From Bifidobacterium crudilactis (GTDB lineage: Bacteria; Actinomycetota; Actinomycetes; Actinomycetales; Bifidobacteriaceae), in the NCBI RefSeq assembly GCF_000738005.1, contig NZ_JHAL01000002.1, positions 186,001-250,000 of the forward strand: DNA of 64,000 nucleotides, written 5' to 3'. The translations under genes and the position numbers were made by a program. A model generated the notes under the pieces. That model had not been told where the DNA came from, did not search any database, and saw only the letters and a program-made list of their open reading frames with translations. Positions 4,687-15,827 of this stretch are shown piece by piece; position 1 is the first letter of the stretch; each line of letters opens with the position of its first letter.

Positions 4687-6432
4687 ATGTCCTCAACAAT
4701 CAATGCCGGAGATGCGGTGCTCAAGGTCATCGAGGAATGGGGTGTTCCACGAATCTACGGATTGCCGGGTGGTTCATTCGACTCGATGATGAACGCTCTG
4801 CACAATGAGCGTAAACGTATCGATTTCATCCAGGTTCGGCACGAAGAGGCGGGTGCGTTAGCTGCTGCCGCCGAAGCGAAGCTTACCGGACGCATCGGCG
4901 TCTGCTTCGGCTCATCGGGGCCAGGTGCCGTCCATCTGCTCAACGGTCTCTATGATGCCCGAGAGGACCGTGTTCCGGTGCTCGCCCTCGTTGGCCAGGT
5001 GCCTCAGGCCTTCATGAACATGGACTTCTTCCAGGCCATGGACGAGGAGCCCATATTCGAGGACGTCGCAGTCTTTAACCGTACCGCGACCAATCCCGAA
5101 GGACTGCCTGCGCTCATCGATGAAGCCATACGTCAGGCGTACAAGCATCATGGTGTTTCGGTCATCACGATTCCGAAGGATCTGGCCTGGACGCCGATTG
5201 ATTGGCAGCCCGTCGCATCTGCGAAGAATTTCCGCAAGCCGCTGCCGCTGCAACCGCATCATGACCTGGTCGAGCAGGCCGTGAAGCTGATTGCCGACGC
5301 CGAGGCTCCGCTCTTGTATTTCGGCAAGGGAGCCAGCACCGCACACGACGAACTGGTCGAAATGTCAGAGAAATTCAAGATGCCGATGGTGTCCACTCAT
5401 CCGAGCAAGGGCGTGGTGGAAGATACCCATCCTGCATTCCTCGGGTCGTCGGGCAGGGTCGCCACCAAGCCTGCCAGCGAGGCCAGCCAGGCAGCCGATG
5501 TGATCGTCTGGGTCGGCAACGACAATCCCTTCGCATCCAAACTGGTAGGACCACAGGCTCGCATCATCCAAATCGACAATGATTCCGAGAAGCTCGGCAA
5601 GCGCCTTCAGGACCGCATGGCCGTGGCGATTCAGGCCGACGCCAAGCTCACCTTGCGTGAGATGATCGACGCAGGCGAGGAGCTGCCGGGAACGGCGTTC
5701 TACAGAGCCTGCCTGGCGAACAAGCGCAATTGGGAGGAATGGATTGCCTCCTTCAACGACGATGATCGTGTTCCTCTTCGTCCTGAACCGATTTTCGACA
5801 TTATCAACGCCCAGACCGATCCGGATGACATCTTCATGATTGATGTCGGCAACATCAACATCAATTTCGCCAGGCTTTCGCATCTGCAGCCCAGCAACAA
5901 GTGGGCTACATCCGGCAAGCATGCGACGATGGGATTCGCCGTCCCCGCGGCACTTGCGGCAAAGCTCGAATACCCGGATTCGACGGTCTACAGCCTGAGC
6001 GGCGACGGTGGCTTTGCCATGCTTTCCGAGGAGATTCTCGCCCAGGTCAAATACCGTACCCCAGTCGTCAACGTCGTCTTCTCGAACCAGACGCTTGGCT
6101 TCATCGAGGCCGAACAGCGCGACGATTCGCATCAGCCGCTTTCGGGAGTCGATCTGATCGACACGGATTGGGCGAAGGTGGGCGAAGGATATGGTGCTCT
6201 TGGCTTCACGGTGCGTACCAGGGAAGAGGCCAAAGTCGCCTTCGCCGAGGCCAAGGCGGCCGACAGGCCTTCGGTCATCGATGTGAAGCTCACGGGCGAG
6301 ATGCCCTTCACCACGATGTACATGCATCTGTCGGAGCATGACGATCCTGAAGCGGTGAGGGAGTTCAAGGAGCATTACGAGGCGCAGCCTTTGAAGGCGC
6401 TGGACTATTGGTTGGAGCAGGAGCAAGCCTGA
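4687..6432 (+). CDS. poxB: pyruvate oxidase (TPP- and FAD-dependent)
   Basis: The 581-residue protein has the three-domain layout of TPP enzymes and close resemblance in remembered motifs to the phosphate-dependent pyruvate oxidase of lactobacilli. These are GLPGGSFDSMMNAL near residue 25, QVRHEEAGALAAAAEAKLTG with the TPP-activating glutamate at about residue 54, and GLYDAREDRVPVLALVGQ. The TPP/Mg motif is GDGG at 439-442 with N467 about 27 residues on. The family converts pyruvate, phosphate and oxygen to acetyl phosphate, CO2 and hydrogen peroxide; a quinone-reducing variant is the alternative. A strong AGGGAGGT ribosome site precedes the ATG. It is monocistronic and ends in a long hairpin shared with the convergent TetR operon. 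Confidence 0.9.
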   Translation: MSSTINAGDAVLKVIEEWGVPRIYGLPGGSFDSMMNALHNERKRIDFIQVRHEEAGALAAAAEAKLTGRIGVCFGSSGPGAVHLLNGLYDAREDRVPVLALVGQVPQAFMNMDFFQAMDEEPIFEDVAVFNRTATNPEGLPALIDEAIRQAYKHHGVSVITIPKDLAWTPIDWQPVASAKNFRKPLPLQPHHDLVEQAVKLIADAEAPLLYFGKGASTAHDELVEMSEKFKMPMVSTHPSKGVVEDTHPAFLGSSGRVATKPASEASQAADVIVWVGNDNPFASKLVGPQARIIQIDNDSEKLGKRLQDRMAVAIQADAKLTLREMIDAGEELPGTAFYRACLANKRNWEEWIASFNDDDRVPLRPEPIFDIINAQTDPDDIFMIDVGNININFARLSHLQPSNKWATSGKHATMGFAVPAALAAKLEYPDSTVYSLSGDGGFAMLSEEILAQVKYRTPVVNVVFSNQTLGFIEAEQRDDSHQPLSGVDLIDTDWAKVGEGYGALGFTVRTREEAKVAFAEAKAADRPSVIDVKLTGEMPFTTMYMHLSEHDDPEAVREFKEHYEAQPLKALDYWLEQEQA

Positions 6433-9429: not shown

Positions 9430-9768
9430 TTCTTAGCACAACGCCTTCGGCTCGGCAAATATGTTCCGTCGGGGGAGTTTCGTCAGTTAACTGGTAAAAC
9501 GTTCTGATTTCCGGAGTTCTATCAGTGCACCGGCAACTGTGGGCGATTGCTGTCGCACCCTATGCGGCTGCCTGTGCTGAAATAAACCATTAATATAACC
9601 ACCCCGCTTCGTTACTGCTCCGTAACAGTGCGACCGTGATTCAACCGCACGGCTCTGCAAGAATTCACATCACGGAGGGGGATTCAGCGCACAATCGGCA
9701 CTCGGGAATGACGTGTTCGCGATGCCGTCGCCGCTGCTTCTCCACAACAGACAGAATCGGGGTTCGCA
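9430..9768. other. non-coding region between exporter operon and kinase gene
   Basis: No gene is seen. An AT-rich stretch near 9580-9600 (TTAATATAAC) may be a promoter -10 region for the rightward kinase gene, but no matching -35 is clear. Confidence 0.4.
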
Positions 9769-10836
9769 ATGTCAGAAGTTCTGCGCGTGCTTGATGAGCC
9801 GGAGCAGTCCGTCAGTCTCAATGCCTTCAGCAATCTCAGCAAGGGGGATCCTGCGCCCTTCTGGCTCTTCAGAGGAGTCTGCGCGTGCTGGGGTCTCGAC
9901 AACGCCACCACCACGCTTGACCTGATCACCGTCTCCGAGAACGCCACCTTCGTACTGCGCATCGACGGCAAGGACGAGGGCGTGGTAAGGGTGTCACAGC
10001 CCGGATACGTCGGCGGGCCCGAAGCCGTGGCCTCCGAGATCCTCTGGTTGAACTCTCTCCACGATGTCGAAGGGGTTAATCTCATCAACCCCGTGCCGAC
10101 CATTCGTGGGACCTTCGTGGGCACGGTGAGAGACGGCAACGGAGTCGGGTGGACGGTGATTTCCACCAAGTTCGTCACGGGAACGGTGCTTGAGGATATG
10201 GAGAATCCGGCTCCGTACTACACCACCATCGGAGCCTGGGCAGCAAAGTTCCACCAGCATTCCCGTTCTTGGGATGCACCGCGTGGCTTCAAACGGTTCA
10301 ACTGGGATATCTCCGACATGGTCGGCCCTTCTCCGCGCTGGGGACGCTGGGAGAACGCCTCTCTCAGCAACGAGGAACGGGCGGTCTGCGAGCAGGCCTT
10401 GTGGAAGGCGATGGATGTGGTGATGAAAACGCCACGGACCCAGCAGACATGGGGGCTCATCCACGCCGACCTGCGCCCCTCGAACATCATCAGGGATGCC
10501 GACGGCAAGCTCACCATCATCGACTTCGACGATGCCGGATACAGCTGGTATCTCTACGATTACGCCTCCTCGCTGAGCTTCATCGAACACATGCCGTATG
10601 CGCCGGAACTTGCCCGCTCCTGGGTCAAAGGCTACGAGCAGGTCGCCGGGGCATTCAGCGAGGACCAGCTTGAGGTGATGTCGGCGCTGTCGATGATTCG
10701 CCGACTGCAAATGCTCGGCTGGACGACGAACCACCGTGAGGATGCTCTTCCCGAAGAACTCGCCACCACACAGGCCAGCGGCTCCGTGCTCTGCGCACAG
10801 CGGTATCTGGAGGATTCGCGATGGCTTCTCAACTGA
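9769..10836 (+). CDS. APH-fold small-molecule kinase, likely ethanolamine/amino-alcohol kinase
   Basis: The 355-residue protein belongs to the aminoglycoside phosphotransferase/choline kinase fold. The catalytic loop is HADLRPSN with H232, D234 and N239, and the Mg-binding motif is IDFDDAG with D252 and D254. Both are intact. Antibiotic resistance is possible for the family but unlikely here, because the next genes are an ethanolamine-type permease and an AGXT2L-type phospho-lyase. In animals the same pairing (APH kinase plus class-III phospho-lyase) degrades hydroxylysine or phosphoethanolamine. The inferred role is phosphorylation of ethanolamine, or a close amino-alcohol, after uptake. A 203-base gap separates it from the permease. 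The ribosome site (CGGGG) is modest. Confidence 0.75.
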   Translation: MSEVLRVLDEPEQSVSLNAFSNLSKGDPAPFWLFRGVCACWGLDNATTTLDLITVSENATFVLRIDGKDEGVVRVSQPGYVGGPEAVASEILWLNSLHDVEGVNLINPVPTIRGTFVGTVRDGNGVGWTVISTKFVTGTVLEDMENPAPYYTTIGAWAAKFHQHSRSWDAPRGFKRFNWDISDMVGPSPRWGRWENASLSNEERAVCEQALWKAMDVVMKTPRTQQTWGLIHADLRPSNIIRDADGKLTIIDFDDAGYSWYLYDYASSLSFIEHMPYAPELARSWVKGYEQVAGAFSEDQLEVMSALSMIRRLQMLGWTTNHREDALPEELATTQASGSVLCAQRYLEDSRWLLN

Positions 10837-11039
10837 TAGCTCTCGGTGCGGGCGACTGTCTGGCCGATGACGCCTTCCGCTAGCGACCTGTTGGGAGAAA
10901 GTGCGCATCTGAGGGCTTCGGCATGCGGCACGGGCAACGAACAACTCCACCGACGGTGATGCGAACAGCTCCGCCAACGGTGACACGAACAAGCAGTATC
11001 GGCAGCATCAGCAAGGTATACAGAAAGAAGGTTCCGGAC

Positions 11040-12539
11040 ATGTCGACAACGACGACTCAGGAAACCAGCAAAGGTCTGGGTGGCGTCACCTACGTGACCA
11101 CGGACGAAGAATATTTCAAAAAACGGCAGTTGAAGCGCACCACAGGTGCTTTCGGACTATGGGCCATCGGCATCTCGGCCGTCATCTCCGGCGATTTCTC
11201 CGGCTGGAACGGCGGCATCGCCCAAGCGGGTTGGGGTGGCATGCTCATCGCCGCAGCGGTGGTGTACACGATGTATGTGCTGATGTTGAACGCCATCAGC
11301 GAGATGGCCTCGGCCATGCCGCACACCGGCGGCGCCTACTCCTTCGCCCGTGCGGCCATGGGACCCTGGGGCGGGTTCTTCACCGGTCTGGCCGAAACCA
11401 TCGAATACGTGATGACCGCCGCCGTGGTGGTCTACTTCTCATCGGCCTATGCGGATGCCATCGTCTCCGACCTCACCGGATATTCCTTGGACGCCCACGG
11501 GCTGATGTGGGTGTGGTGGCTGGCCCTGTACGTGATTTTCGTCGCGATCAACTGGGCAGGTGCGGAAACCTCGTTCAGATTCGCGCAGATTGTCTCCATC
11601 GCCGCCTTGGCCATTGTGGCTATCTTCGGCATAGGTGCCATCGTCGCAGGCAAAGTCGACTTCGGCAGTCTGCTGAATATTGCACCGAGTGCCGGAAACA
11701 CGCCATTCCTGCCCTTCGGCATCGGTGCGGTGTTCTATGCGATGCCATTCGCGATGTGGCTGTTCCTCGGCATCGAGCAGCTCCCGTTGGCCGCCGAGGA
11801 GGTTCGTGAACCGGAACGCAACATCCCGAAGTCCTCACGTCTGTGCATCTTCACTCTCGGTCTCTCCGCGCTGATTATCGTATTCCTCAACCCGGCCGTG
11901 GTCGGTTCCAAGGCGCTCGCGGCATCCGACGAACCATTGCTTGACGGGTATCGGGCCATTCTGCCCGGGAATCTCGCCGCGGTGCTCTCTGCCTTCGCGC
12001 TCATCGGTCTGCTGGCCTCGGTGCAGGGCATCATGTTCGCATACGGCCGCAACCTGTATTCGCTTTCACGCGCCGGCTATTACCCGGCGTTCCTGTCGCT
12101 GACCGGCAAGAAGAAGACGCCGTACTGGGGCCTGATCGTCGGCGCCGTCTTCGGATTCGCCGCACTGTTCATCGTGGCTTACGGTGGGCAGGGCGCAGGT
12201 TCGGTGGTGCTCAACATCGCGGTGTGGGGAGCGGTGCTCGCATACCTGCTGCAGATGATCTCCTATGTCATTCTCCGCAAGCGCATGCCGGATATCGAAC
12301 GACCCTTCGTGAGCCGATTCGGTGTGCCCGGCGCCGTGATTGCAGGTCTGGTATCGCTGGTGATTTTCATAGCCGTGCTGCTGAACCCCGATTATCGGCT
12401 GGCCGTGTATGTGATGGTCGTCATCTATGTGCTTGCCCTGATATTCTTCGCGGCATATGGACGCAAGCATCTCGTGCTCTCACCGGAGGAGGAGTTCGCC
12501 GCTTCGGGTGGGAAGGCCATCTACAAAACCGAAGAGTAG
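11040..12539 (+). CDS. APC-family amino acid/ethanolamine permease
   Basis: The 499-residue permease has about twelve membrane helices. It carries stretches typical of the ethanolamine permease branch of the APC superfamily: VISGDFSGWN in helix 1, AMPHTGGAYSFARAAMG, and FAMWLFLGIEQLPLAAEE followed by PERNIPKS. The cytosolic C-terminus is short. The start MSTTTTQETSKG at 11040 follows GAAGG; a longer frame upstream (from 10923) is low-complexity and lacks a ribosome site. It sits between the APH kinase and the phospho-lyase on the same strand, with only 67 bases to the latter. This supports import of the substrate they metabolise. Confidence 0.82.
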   Translation: MSTTTTQETSKGLGGVTYVTTDEEYFKKRQLKRTTGAFGLWAIGISAVISGDFSGWNGGIAQAGWGGMLIAAAVVYTMYVLMLNAISEMASAMPHTGGAYSFARAAMGPWGGFFTGLAETIEYVMTAAVVVYFSSAYADAIVSDLTGYSLDAHGLMWVWWLALYVIFVAINWAGAETSFRFAQIVSIAALAIVAIFGIGAIVAGKVDFGSLLNIAPSAGNTPFLPFGIGAVFYAMPFAMWLFLGIEQLPLAAEEVREPERNIPKSSRLCIFTLGLSALIIVFLNPAVVGSKALAASDEPLLDGYRAILPGNLAAVLSAFALIGLLASVQGIMFAYGRNLYSLSRAGYYPAFLSLTGKKKTPYWGLIVGAVFGFAALFIVAYGGQGAGSVVLNIAVWGAVLAYLLQMISYVILRKRMPDIERPFVSRFGVPGAVIAGLVSLVIFIAVLLNPDYRLAVYVMVVIYVLALIFFAAYGRKHLVLSPEEEFAASGGKAIYKTEE

Positions 12540-12606
12540 ACGATACACCCGGGATGACCGGAATAGTCAGAACACCAACAGAAATCATTACGACAAAGAA
12601 GGAAAC

Positions 12607-13971
12607 ATGGCAGTTCGCTCGACGATTATGGATACGAATAGCTTCCGACCCGGCATGGAAGAGGGCCTCGACCCCGAGACGCGAAAAATGGCGCATGAGC
12701 GTGAGGTTCTGGGACCGGCGTATCGCCTGTTCTACCGTAAACCGGTGCATCTGGTTCGGGGCAAAGGCAGCCATCTCTGGGATGCCGACGGCGTCGAATA
12801 CCTCGATGTCTACAACAACGTCGCTTCCGTAGGGCATTGTCATCCCCGAGTCGTCGAAGCCATCACGCGTCAGGCTTCGATGCTCAACACCCATACCCGC
12901 TATCTGCACGAGAACGTGCTCGGATACGCCGAGGACATCCTTTCGACGATGCCCGACGAAGTCAACCGCATCATGTTCCAGTGCACCGGTTCGGAAGCCA
13001 ATGACCTGGCGATTCGTGTGGCGCAGACCTACACCGGCGGTGAGGGTGTTATCGTCACGCACGAGGCGTATCACGGCAATTCGGCACTGACGTCCAAACT
13101 GTCGCCTGCGCTGGGAACAGCTCAGACGCTCGGATTGACCATGCGCATGATTCCCACTCCCGACACCTACCGTGTCGATATCGACGGCAAAACCGCAGGG
13201 GAGTGCTCCGCAGAGGTGTTCGGCGCGTGGATGGCCGAGGAGCTGAGGAAGCAGGTCGAGGATATGCGTCGACACGGCATTCCCTTCGCGGCATTCCTCG
13301 CGGACTCGATATTCTCCTCGGACGGTGTGTACCCGGGGCCTGTCGGCTATCTCAAACCGGTGATCGACATGGTGCACAAACTCGGCGGGGTGTTCATCGC
13401 CGACGAGGTGCAACCGGGCTTCACCCGTACAGGGGATGCCTTCTGGGGTTTCCAACGCCATGGTGTAGTGCCCGATCTGGTGACCTCGGGCAAGCCCATG
13501 GCCAATGGTCTGCCGACCTCGCTGATGGCCGCCCGGGCCGAAGTGCTGGAACCCTTCGCCGGGTCGATTCCCTATTTCAACACCTTCGGAGGGAATCCCG
13601 TCTGCATGGCGGCATCTCAGGCGACGCTCGACGTGATGCGCGACGAGGACACCATGGGCAATGCCAAGAAGGTCGGCGGCATCTTCATGCAGGCTCTGCG
13701 TGGATTCCAGGCGGAACACCCCTGCATCGGGGACTTGCGCGGAACCGGCCTGTACATCGCCTGCGAAATCGTCAAACCCGCCACCAAGGAAGCCGATCAG
13801 CAGACCGCGCTGGATATTCTCGAAACGCTGCGCGACAATCACGTGCTCACCTCGGTGTGCGGACGATACGGCAACATCCTGAAGCTGCGCCCGCCGCTGG
13901 TGTTCAGCGAAGCCGACGTGGATTGGTTCTCCGACGCTTTCGGCAAGACCCTCAAGCAATTGGGGCTGTAG
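12607..13971 (+). CDS. class-III PLP enzyme of the AGXT2L type, likely ethanolamine-phosphate phospho-lyase
   Basis: The 454-residue PLP enzyme has the class-III aminotransferase fold. The Schiff-base lysine is K296 in TSGKPMANG, and GSEAND, AYHGN, ADEVQPGFTRTG and YFNTFGGNPVCMA are all present. The pattern matches the AGXT2/AGXT2L branch rather than ornithine or GABA aminotransferases, especially NNVASVGHCHP, PTPDTYR and GKPMxNG. AGXT2L enzymes do not transaminate: they eliminate phosphate and ammonia from phosphoethanolamine (giving acetaldehyde) or from phosphohydroxylysine. With the adjacent kinase and permease that is the best reading. An ordinary omega-aminotransferase is the alternative. 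The start follows AAGGAAAC; the frame upstream lacks support. Confidence 0.8.
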   Translation: MAVRSTIMDTNSFRPGMEEGLDPETRKMAHEREVLGPAYRLFYRKPVHLVRGKGSHLWDADGVEYLDVYNNVASVGHCHPRVVEAITRQASMLNTHTRYLHENVLGYAEDILSTMPDEVNRIMFQCTGSEANDLAIRVAQTYTGGEGVIVTHEAYHGNSALTSKLSPALGTAQTLGLTMRMIPTPDTYRVDIDGKTAGECSAEVFGAWMAEELRKQVEDMRRHGIPFAAFLADSIFSSDGVYPGPVGYLKPVIDMVHKLGGVFIADEVQPGFTRTGDAFWGFQRHGVVPDLVTSGKPMANGLPTSLMAARAEVLEPFAGSIPYFNTFGGNPVCMAASQATLDVMRDEDTMGNAKKVGGIFMQALRGFQAEHPCIGDLRGTGLYIACEIVKPATKEADQQTALDILETLRDNHVLTSVCGRYGNILKLRPPLVFSEADVDWFSDAFGKTLKQLGL

Positions 13972-14220
13972 GTCGGACTTTGACTCCGGGCTGTGACGGC
14001 AGCAGCGATGCAGCTGGCAGAGCGGTTGACATCGTCGACCTGAAATATTCATCGCTTATCCTTGCCCTGTGACAGGACACGCGAGTGCCGTTTGCCATGG
14101 CCTTCTCGGTGACGGCGCTCCGTGGTGGCGAGGACATGCCGGAAGGGATGCGGGACTCAGAACGACCGCCGCCGGAAACGCACGGTGTCCAAGGCGGGAG
14201 ATGGGAAGGGGAAGAATCAC

Positions 14221-15051
14221 ATGTCAGCATCGGCATCTGCTCCGAACCCGGAATCCGCAACTGCTTCGCGAGGGCAGGTGGCGCGCGCCAACCGCTCCGA
14301 CACCATACGACTGCTGAGAACGGTGATTCAGGAGCGTGAACTCCTGCCAGGCGAGCGTCTGGGCTCCGAGCGTCAGATCGCATCCCAACTGGGCGTCACG
14401 CGAGCGGATCTGAGAATCGCGCTCGCGGCTTTGGAATCAAGTCATGAGGTGCTTCGACGAATCGGCAGGGGTGGGGGCATCATCGTTTCGGACAGCCGGT
14501 TGGAACGCAATATCAACACGGTCGAGTCCTTGCCGATTATCGCCCGCAGACAGGGGCGAATCCTCAAATCCGATGTGGTCTCCGCGATGATAGCCCCTGC
14601 AACGTGCTCCGACGTCAGATTGTTGGGACTTGATAGAGTCGCTTCCGGTGCCGTACGCAACATCTTCGACATCACCCGTGTGCGGTATGTGGATGGAACC
14701 CCGTTGTCCTTGGAAATCAGCCATCTGCCCGCAGACCTGTTCCCGGGCTTCCTGACGAAGGACCTCACCACTTCCTTCTATGCCCGATTCGCCGACGAGT
14801 ACGGAATTCATCCTGCCGTGGTGGATGAGACCTTGGAGTCCATCATCCCCAGCAAACGGCAGGCCGAACTGCTGCGAGTGGATGAGGGCACGCCCCTGAT
14901 GCGTATTCGCAGAGTCGCACGCACGCAGGAAGGCAGACCCTTCGAAAGGGCGACCGATGTCTATGTGGCATCTCGGATGCGCTTCACGATGCACCATTCC
15001 GGCTATGTGCGGCTGTCCGCCACCGTTCCGCAAGAGCCGAAGCAAGGCTGA
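14221..15051 (+). CDS. GntR-family (HutC/UTRA) transcriptional regulator
   Basis: The 276-residue regulator has an N-terminal winged helix at about residues 20-85 (TIRLLRTVIQERELLPGERL, SERQIASQLGVTRADLRIAL) and a C-terminal UTRA ligand domain at about 105-255 (FDITRVRYVDGTPLSLEISHLP; RRVARTQEGRPFERATDVY). HutC/UTRA regulators usually sense the pathway substrate or a phosphorylated intermediate and repress the neighbouring operon. It is the last gene of the kinase-permease-lyase cluster, 249 bases after the lyase. The start MSASAS at 14221 follows GGGAAGGGGAAG; the longer upstream frame looks non-coding. Confidence 0.85.
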   Translation: MSASASAPNPESATASRGQVARANRSDTIRLLRTVIQERELLPGERLGSERQIASQLGVTRADLRIALAALESSHEVLRRIGRGGGIIVSDSRLERNINTVESLPIIARRQGRILKSDVVSAMIAPATCSDVRLLGLDRVASGAVRNIFDITRVRYVDGTPLSLEISHLPADLFPGFLTKDLTTSFYARFADEYGIHPAVVDETLESIIPSKRQAELLRVDEGTPLMRIRRVARTQEGRPFERATDVYVASRMRFTMHHSGYVRLSATVPQEPKQG

Positions 15052-15221: not shown

Positions 15222-15827
15222 ATGCGCAATGTGATATTCGACTTCTGCGGGGTCCTCCTGGATTGGCGGCCTCGACTCACGCTCGAAGGCCAATATCCCC
15301 AAGGGGTGATTGACATGTTCTTCGATACGGCTGACCCGCGTGGCTTCGACTATTATGACCGCAAGTCGGACGAAGGATGGAGTCAGGAACGCATACTCAA
15401 GGAATACGAGGAATCTCACGGTCCTGCGGTGGCATGGGTGTTTCGTACCTACTTCGAGCATTTCGAGAAGTCCCTGTACGGCATGATGCCCGGGATGCCG
15501 GAGCTGATGCGTGAACTCGAGGCCCGAGGGGTGCAGCTGTGGGGTCTCACCAACTTCACCGCAGAATACGTCGATGCCGTTCGTGCGAAGTTCCCTGAAT
15601 TCGGACTCTTGCGGGATGTGGTGGTCTCGGCGGAAGTATCGCTGGCCAAGCCTGATGCGCGAATATATGAGTTCGCCGCCAGGCGTTTCGGCGTCGAAAC
15701 CGACACCTGCATCTTCGTGGACGATACTCCGGAAAACGTCGATGGAGCACGTACAGCCGGCATGCAGGCCATCCACTTCACCGATGCCGAAACCCTCCGT
15801 ACCCAGCTGCTGTCTGCCCTGGAATAG
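15222..15827 (+). CDS. HAD-superfamily phosphatase (YihX/IA-like)
   Basis: The 201-residue protein has HAD motif I as DFCGVLLDW (nucleophile D7), motif II LTNFTAEY, motif III lysine in SLAKPDARIY and motif IV VDDTPENVDGA. These are all present, so it should be an active phosphatase. The DFCGVL form and overall length resemble glucose-1-phosphatase YihX-like proteins; the real substrate is unknown. The gene is single. Its TAG stop overlaps the first base of a family A palindrome, so the palindrome becomes the 3' end structure of this mRNA. Confidence 0.85.
   Translation: MRNVIFDFCGVLLDWRPRLTLEGQYPQGVIDMFFDTADPRGFDYYDRKSDEGWSQERILKEYEESHGPAVAWVFRTYFEHFEKSLYGMMPGMPELMRELEARGVQLWGLTNFTAEYVDAVRAKFPEFGLLRDVVVSAEVSLAKPDARIYEFAARRFGVETDTCIFVDDTPENVDGARTAGMQAIHFTDAETLRTQLLSALE

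Follow-up and report, generated by a model that had tools for sequence, protein, structure and literature searches.

A proposed kinase and phospho-lyase operon for ethanolamine in Bifidobacterium crudilactis, preceded by a recurring operator-like palindrome

A cluster of four genes at positions 9769-15051 in a 64,000-nucleotide stretch of Bifidobacterium crudilactis DNA (the window, meaning the whole stretch that was analysed) encodes a kinase, a permease, a pyridoxal 5'-phosphate (PLP) enzyme and a UTRA-type regulator, and was compared with the closest described systems for the breakdown of ethanolamine. The B12-dependent Eut pathway uses the substrate proposed here and gives the same products apart from phosphate, whereas the bifidobacterial route would spend ATP in place of B12, and neither EutB nor a shell gene was found. 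In Erwinia, according to old enzymology, ethanolamine is reportedly broken down by a kinase and a phospho-lyase, and the chemistry expected of the cluster is the same. The human ethanolamine-phosphate phospho-lyase (ETNPPL/AGXT2L1, structure 6TOR) and the Arthrobacter (aurescens) enzyme 5G4I, which we take to be active as a phospholyase, have a clade and active-site motifs in common with the window enzyme. Unlike them, the window enzyme, a predicted phospho-lyase, lies in a bacterial operon with a kinase, a permease and a UTRA regulator. On an enterobacterial (Chimaeribacter) plasmid, a 59% identical lyase has a kinase on one side and an annotated ethanolamine permease gene on the other, but the regulator is of the AraC type and the kinase is on the opposite strand; here, a UTRA regulator and a palindrome are present in an anaerobe-type actinobacterium. 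The Aut/RMM microcompartment for 1-amino-2-propanol/aminoacetone contains relatives of the kinase, the PLP enzyme and the GntR regulator, and the published prediction also includes a permease. In contrast, no shell genes were found in this case, and no dedicated aldehyde dehydrogenase lies beside the window cluster. Streptomyces likewise has an actinobacterial route without eut genes, in which GlnA4 forms gamma-glutamylethanolamide instead of phosphoethanolamine (PMC6529630). According to PMC8154272, class-III lyases of this kind had been documented, ahead of the enzyme that it describes, in ethanolamine-phosphate phospho-lyase and one close relative.

The chemistry is thus known from other organisms; what is new is the recurring palindrome upstream of the kinase, the layout and the apparent common control site in bifidobacteria. 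No description of the pathway in bifidobacteria was found among titles and abstract openings, a search in which subscription papers were mostly not covered. The available text of the 1-amino-2-propanol microcompartment prediction paper (PMC6620236) had 0 occurrences of Bifidobacterium, and a term search for Bifidobacteri* in that of a 2018 ethanolamine review (PMC5821096) also returned 0. Surveys of ethanolamine use by gut bacteria usually look for eutBC and shell genes. They would miss a shell-free, B12-independent route whose lyase is labelled 'aspartate aminotransferase family protein', as close relatives publicly are, and this would concern a commensal genus as well as Lachnospira eligens.

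The features of the locus were as follows.

9608..9629, no strand: operator-like palindrome TTCGTTACTGCTCCGTAACAGT, core GTTAC-N6-GTAAC at 9611-9626; putative site of the UTRA regulator, based on dyad recurrence
9769..10836, + strand: APH-fold small-molecule kinase of 355 amino acids, proposed ethanolamine kinase (PF01636, E 5.2e-22; 6EF6, E 1.9e-49)
11040..12539, + strand: APC-family permease, 499 amino acids from 11040, proposed ethanolamine importer (PF00324, E 7.3e-43; TIGR00908)
12607..13971, + strand: class-III-fold PLP phospho-lyase of 454 amino acids, proposed for O-phosphoethanolamine (homology, motifs, tree)
13492..13494, + strand: codon of Lys296, aligned with the presumed PLP-binding lysine of GKPMxNG (alignment column common to 6TOR, 5G4I and 4ATP)
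14221..15051, + strand: GntR/HutC-type regulator with a UTRA effector domain (PF07702, E 6.1e-31; PF00392, E 7.1e-9)

The open reading frame and domain analysis confirmed what an earlier note on this DNA had described, namely four same-strand genes for an APH-fold kinase, an APC permease, a class-III PLP enzyme and a HutC/UTRA regulator, all four frames being intact. The open reading frames of the permease, the PLP enzyme and the regulator opened at 10923, 12457 and 14122, and the likely starts (11040, 12607 and 14221) were chosen from conservation and the upstream sequence. The intergenic gaps were 203, 67 and 249 bases, in gene order. Scans for sigma-70 promoters and terminators gave nothing above chance.

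We proposed that the permease would import ethanolamine and the APH-fold kinase would convert it to O-phosphoethanolamine at the expense of ATP. The PLP enzyme would then eliminate phosphate from this intermediate, freeing ammonia and acetaldehyde. The ammonia would be usable as a nitrogen source, and the housekeeping AdhE could turn acetaldehyde into acetyl-CoA, or into ethanol as an electron sink; this is possible because AdhE was intact (L092:368-3181, 1327 bits against a cut-off of 951). We infer the substrate, reaction, transport, regulation and physiological role from sequence comparison, and estimate a probability of about 0.75 that the cluster serves ethanolamine catabolism as an operon. 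The kinase and phospho-lyase route suggested in the earlier note is supported on the same grounds, ethanolamine itself being the likely substrate. Its view that neither B12 nor a microcompartment would be needed fits the genome (2.36 Mb, 6 contigs), which had 0 matches to EutB (control positive in 1 of 14 named genomes, E. coli; EutC was outside the search) and 0 to the bacterial microcompartment shell (control positive in 2 of 14). Kennedy-pathway use of phosphoethanolamine was set aside, as no phosphatidylserine decarboxylase was found in the genome (control positive in 6 of 14), which is weak evidence with the cytidylyltransferase outside the search. A PLP aldimine is formed with a primary amine, and choline was ruled out as the source of a lyase substrate because phosphocholine has none.

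The PLP enzyme has the class-III aminotransferase fold (PF00202, E 1.7e-70), and its closest named protein, at 99% identity, is one of Bifidobacterium crudilactis. Its best solved matches were 6TOR (E 2.2e-100, 40% identity) and 5G4I (E 1e-85, 38%), followed by a racemase (7.5e-53) and a gamma-aminobutyrate (GABA) transaminase (1.8e-51). An alignment of 39 proteins was made from the window enzyme, four PDB stretches, eight plasmid-record proteins, three paralogues with the class-III fold from this genome and a choice of 23 out of 78 loci. In the maximum-likelihood tree, 33 rows including the window enzyme formed one clade with 6TOR and 5G4I (support 100/99) and six rows fell outside, three of these being long-branched and the branching order within the clade being resolved in part. 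The motifs NNV, RY/FL, GKPMxNG, FNT and NxLKx(R/K)PP were common to the window enzyme, 6TOR and 5G4I; in this alignment none of them was found in 4ATP, in 9WRF or in the three paralogues, which also stood apart from the window enzyme in sequence comparison. The term phospho-lyase motif is our own reading and not a curated signature, and substitutions were scattered inside the clade, such as GKPLGAG (Variovorax), GKPTAGG (Actinomadura) and FST (Phycisphaerales). The arginines of the GABA transaminase motifs HGR and NVIR, an assignment that is in part our assumption, are replaced by Asn158 and Lys426 in the window enzyme. The loss of both is not decisive alone, since one of the paralogues also lacks both. 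The carboxylate-anchoring function of these arginines is covered by PMC13224807. Based on the tree and the motifs, the enzyme is predicted to be a phospho-lyase and not a transaminase; it did not cluster with true transaminases, the outcome that the earlier note had named as speaking against its reading, and its AGXT2L-type assignment in that note was upheld.

Several further observations were made on this enzyme family. A second phospho-lyase-like paralogue (~41-44% identity) occurs in some bifidobacteria (L060, L063, L077 and G006 C1:1044863-1047234, listed as L094), with its own kinase in L063 and G006. In the proteins P0019 and P0021, the lyase continues in frame from about residue 430 into the UTRA regulator, which may reflect either a fusion by natural deletion or an error of assembly. 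On a Tsukamurella plasmid (L099:7944-10158), a kinase of the same family as that of the window (35%) adjoins a class-III PLP enzyme outside the phospho-lyase clade.

The kinase matched PF01636 (APH) with 79.2 bits, above the cut-off of 23.2, and contained the motifs HADLRPSN and IDFDD. Its best solved match, 6EF6 (34% identity), is labelled 'Aminoglycoside phosphotransferase'. The top NCBIfam family of the permease was TIGR00908 'ethanolamine permease' with 321 bits, the next family reaching 142 bits, and the permease was 81-95% identical in 19 other loci of the same layout, except L033 at 75%. The regulator matched the GntR helix-turn-helix (35.6 bits, cut-off 27) and UTRA (107.6 bits, cut-off 23.8) models, but no NCBIfam equivalog above cut-off (best TIGR03337, 92 bits).

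The neighbourhoods were compared in 25 close loci with a nearly full-length lyase of at least 76% identity (L005-L027, L033 and L052); the partial loci L066 and L072 were excluded. A relative of the regulator was found at the lyase in 23 of the 25. Kinase and permease accompanied the lyase, in the same gene order, in 20 loci (module A). Relative to B. psychraerophilum, the ratio of nonsynonymous to synonymous substitution rates (dN/dS) was 0.064 for the kinase, 0.035 for the permease, 0.028 for the lyase and 0.095 for the regulator, the last over 252 codons only. It was 0.10-0.24 relative to B. ruminantium (L011) and not computable for two of the four genes relative to B. aquikefiri (L006); these values are rough because dS exceeded 1. 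The cluster is therefore more than a chance assembly, given the three genes together in 20 of 25 loci and dN/dS of 0.03-0.10.

Two other neighbourhoods were found around the same lyase, an example of each being given here.

L009:4441-9689, module B: close lyase orthologue beside an amidase, a kinase and a symporter
L018:4149-9859, module C: lyase, ABC importer and metallophosphoesterase, no kinase being found within the stretch

Module B, consisting of an amidase (9e-72), a choline/ethanolamine-type kinase (PF01633, 1.9e-19, above cut-off) and a sodium:solute symporter (5.2e-20), was present in five of the 25 loci (L009, L017, L027, L052 and L033), in L033 beside module A. The solved relatives of its kinase were 3dxq (8.8e-29) and the choline kinase 4r77 (2.5e-18). 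This module suggests that ethanolamine is freed from amides. A Microbacteriaceae locus (L030) combined a kinase, lyase and regulator with a module-B-type kinase (34%) and an amidase (40%).

Module C, with SBP_bac_6, ABC ATPase and metallophosphoesterase domains, was found in three loci, alone in L018 and beside module A in L020 and L026. L018 belongs to the same assembly as L033, so its genome does have the kinase. Module C resembles a locus of the gut Firmicute Lachnospira eligens (L088), where a 57% identical lyase is accompanied by an ABC importer and a metallophosphoesterase and the surrounding 13 kb carry no annotated kinase, and on an Enterobacter plasmid an ABC importer adjoins a 57% lyase with no kinase in the stretch. 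Such modules may allow the direct use of phosphoethanolamine or glycerophosphoethanolamine. Their linkage calls for caution, as the ABC importer and metallophosphoesterase families are broad; the link of phosphoesterase and lyase may be generic, because many bifidobacteria have relatives of the phosphoesterase of B. subtile. The phosphoesterase of L018 had no solved relative at E 0.01, and that of L. eligens matched purple acid phosphatases weakly. That one lyase occurs with two dissimilar kinases, and also with an importer that lacks a kinase, suggests that phosphoethanolamine is the intermediate common to the three neighbourhoods.

Within the genus, 6 of 27 genomes had an orthologue of the lyase (at least 88% identity), and the same six had one of the kinase (at least 82%). 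Across the family, a lyase relative (E 1e-120) was present in 39 of 189 genomes and a kinase relative (E 1e-60) in 34, all of which were among the 39 (Fisher 1.6e-32, uncorrected for kinship). Among the five genomes with a lyase but no kinase, three matched module-B loci (G140 = L009, G172 = L052, G173 = L017), and the other two have 57% lyases. The named carriers among the best 80 of 98 relatives included B. psychraerophilum, aquikefiri, thermophilum, ruminantium, merycicum, moukalabense, boum, subtile, tibiigranuli, choerinum, cuniculi and minimum, and absence from this list means little, since it was drawn up from words of one protein. Lyase relatives also occur in B. pseudolongum and B. 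gallicum. The earlier note had held that the route is not standard in bifidobacteria: it is indeed not universal, but the family counts make it a recurrent accessory trait.

The palindrome lies ~140 bases 5' of the kinase start. The GTTAC-N6-GTAAC dyad (at most 3 mismatches of 12) was found 5' of the kinase in 20 of 21 module-A regions, and the remaining one, L005, had a 21.1-bit site just past the 260 bases searched; the best of 460 candidates in one shuffled set reached 8 of 21 regions. In the regions 5' of the lyase the best dyad recurred in 10 of 23, and in those 5' of the regulator in 9 of 12, with a shuffle maximum of 6 in both. A matrix built from 14 kinase-upstream sites, the window's own included, gave the window site 25.1 bits, the next best in the 64 kb being 12.8 bits. 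In module B, L009, L017 and L052 (L097 repeats L017) had pairs of sites 137 bases apart (9.6-19.5 bits) in the promoter from which amidase and lyase diverge. L033 had a single site ahead of its amidase (11.8 bits) and L018 one ahead of its ABC importer (12.9 bits), and the matrix scan gave none in L027 and L096. At 9.5 bits, 149 kb of shuffled sequence gave 14 matches, so the single sites of modules B and C are weak evidence, and the argument for these modules depends on the recurring pairs. Two results weigh against the palindrome as a rare sequence: the bare GTWAC-N6-GTWAC pattern occurred at 2 places in the genome and its reversed control at 8, and with one mismatch the pattern also had a match in 40 of 100 shuffles of the window. 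As the bare pattern is not rare, the argument for the palindrome is made by its recurrence upstream of kinases and not by rarity. It is a putative site of the UTRA regulator, which would act there and probably sense ethanolamine or phosphoethanolamine. The second genome site is at C1:510814, upstream of an ABC permease-like reading frame.

We tentatively proposed, at odds somewhat worse than even, a phosphoethanolamine regulon of the Bifidobacteriaceae, in which one phospho-lyase and one family of UTRA regulator and operator would be served by three interchangeable entry modules. Free ethanolamine would enter by module A, amide-bound ethanolamine (e.g. short N-acylethanolamines) by module B, and phosphorylated ethanolamine or its glycerol diester by module C, where the kinase is unneeded. 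If this were true, the head groups of membrane lipids would be open to these bacteria with neither B12 nor a microcompartment. With its recurring palindrome and three apparent modules of entry, the regulon is concrete and testable.

Several points weigh against ethanolamine as the substrate of the window cluster. The kinase scored only 25.5 bits against PF01633 (cut-off 29), and 6EF6 is presumably the Mycobacterium smegmatis (S)-1-amino-2-propanol kinase. The permease was under the TIGR00908 cut-off of 381.75 and only 29% identical to the Chimaeribacter ethanolamine permease. The module-B kinase also matched the guanitoxin kinase model GntI (107 bits, under the cut-off of 357). The lyase motifs do not separate phosphoethanolamine from phosphohydroxylysine, AGXT2L2 being outside the alignment.

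In the main rival reading, the same chemistry would be directed at 1-amino-2-propanol and give propionaldehyde, the cluster being related to the aminopropanol/aminoacetone microcompartment pathway but without its shell. The presumed identity of 6EF6 is in its favour, as are a Rhodococcus jostii microcompartment locus with a 33% identical kinase and a 45% identical PLP enzyme, and the predicted 1-amino-2-propanol loci, for which PMC6620236 lists a GntR regulator, a permease, an aminotransferase and an APH phosphotransferase. However, no shell gene was found in the genome, the microcompartment lyase stood just outside the window's group in the tree (88/95), and relatives of the lyase adjoin an annotated ethanolamine permease and, in close loci, choline/ethanolamine-type kinases, so this substrate was judged unlikely. 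Hydroxylysine, which the earlier note had named as the main alternative, was ranked lower still, because the solved structure closest to the window kinase is presumably that of an aminopropanol kinase and the predicted aminopropanol clusters carry relatives of the kinase and the PLP enzyme. A 5-hydroxylysine kinase with an AGXT2L2-like phosphohydroxylysine phospho-lyase would be in line with the presumed close relation of AGXT2L2 (not in the tree) to AGXT2L1, with the existence of APH-type hydroxylysine kinases, and with an APC family that also carries amino acids. It is highly improbable, given that the ethanolamine family was the best for the permease, though under cut-off, and that close lyases are associated with choline/ethanolamine-type kinases. 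The least credible alternative, which was rejected, pairs a normal transaminase of class III with an APH kinase that has no connection to it and may modify antibiotics. The public annotation of close relatives and a weaker kinase match to amicoumacin kinase 6SUI (E 4.8e-19) speak for it, and the tree, the motifs and the strict co-occurrence and fixed order of the kinase and PLP genes against it.

Outside the proposed ethanolamine operon, a HAD-family hydrolase (15222-15827, + strand) lies directly 3' of the regulator, and 8 of the 25 close loci, as well as the two partial loci, have a relative in the vicinity of the lyase; it may be a member of the system or mere synteny. A pyruvate oxidase (4687-6432, + strand; TIGR02720, 768 bits, above the cut-off of 637.85) is also encoded in the window, an oxygen-using enzyme in a genus usually called anaerobic.

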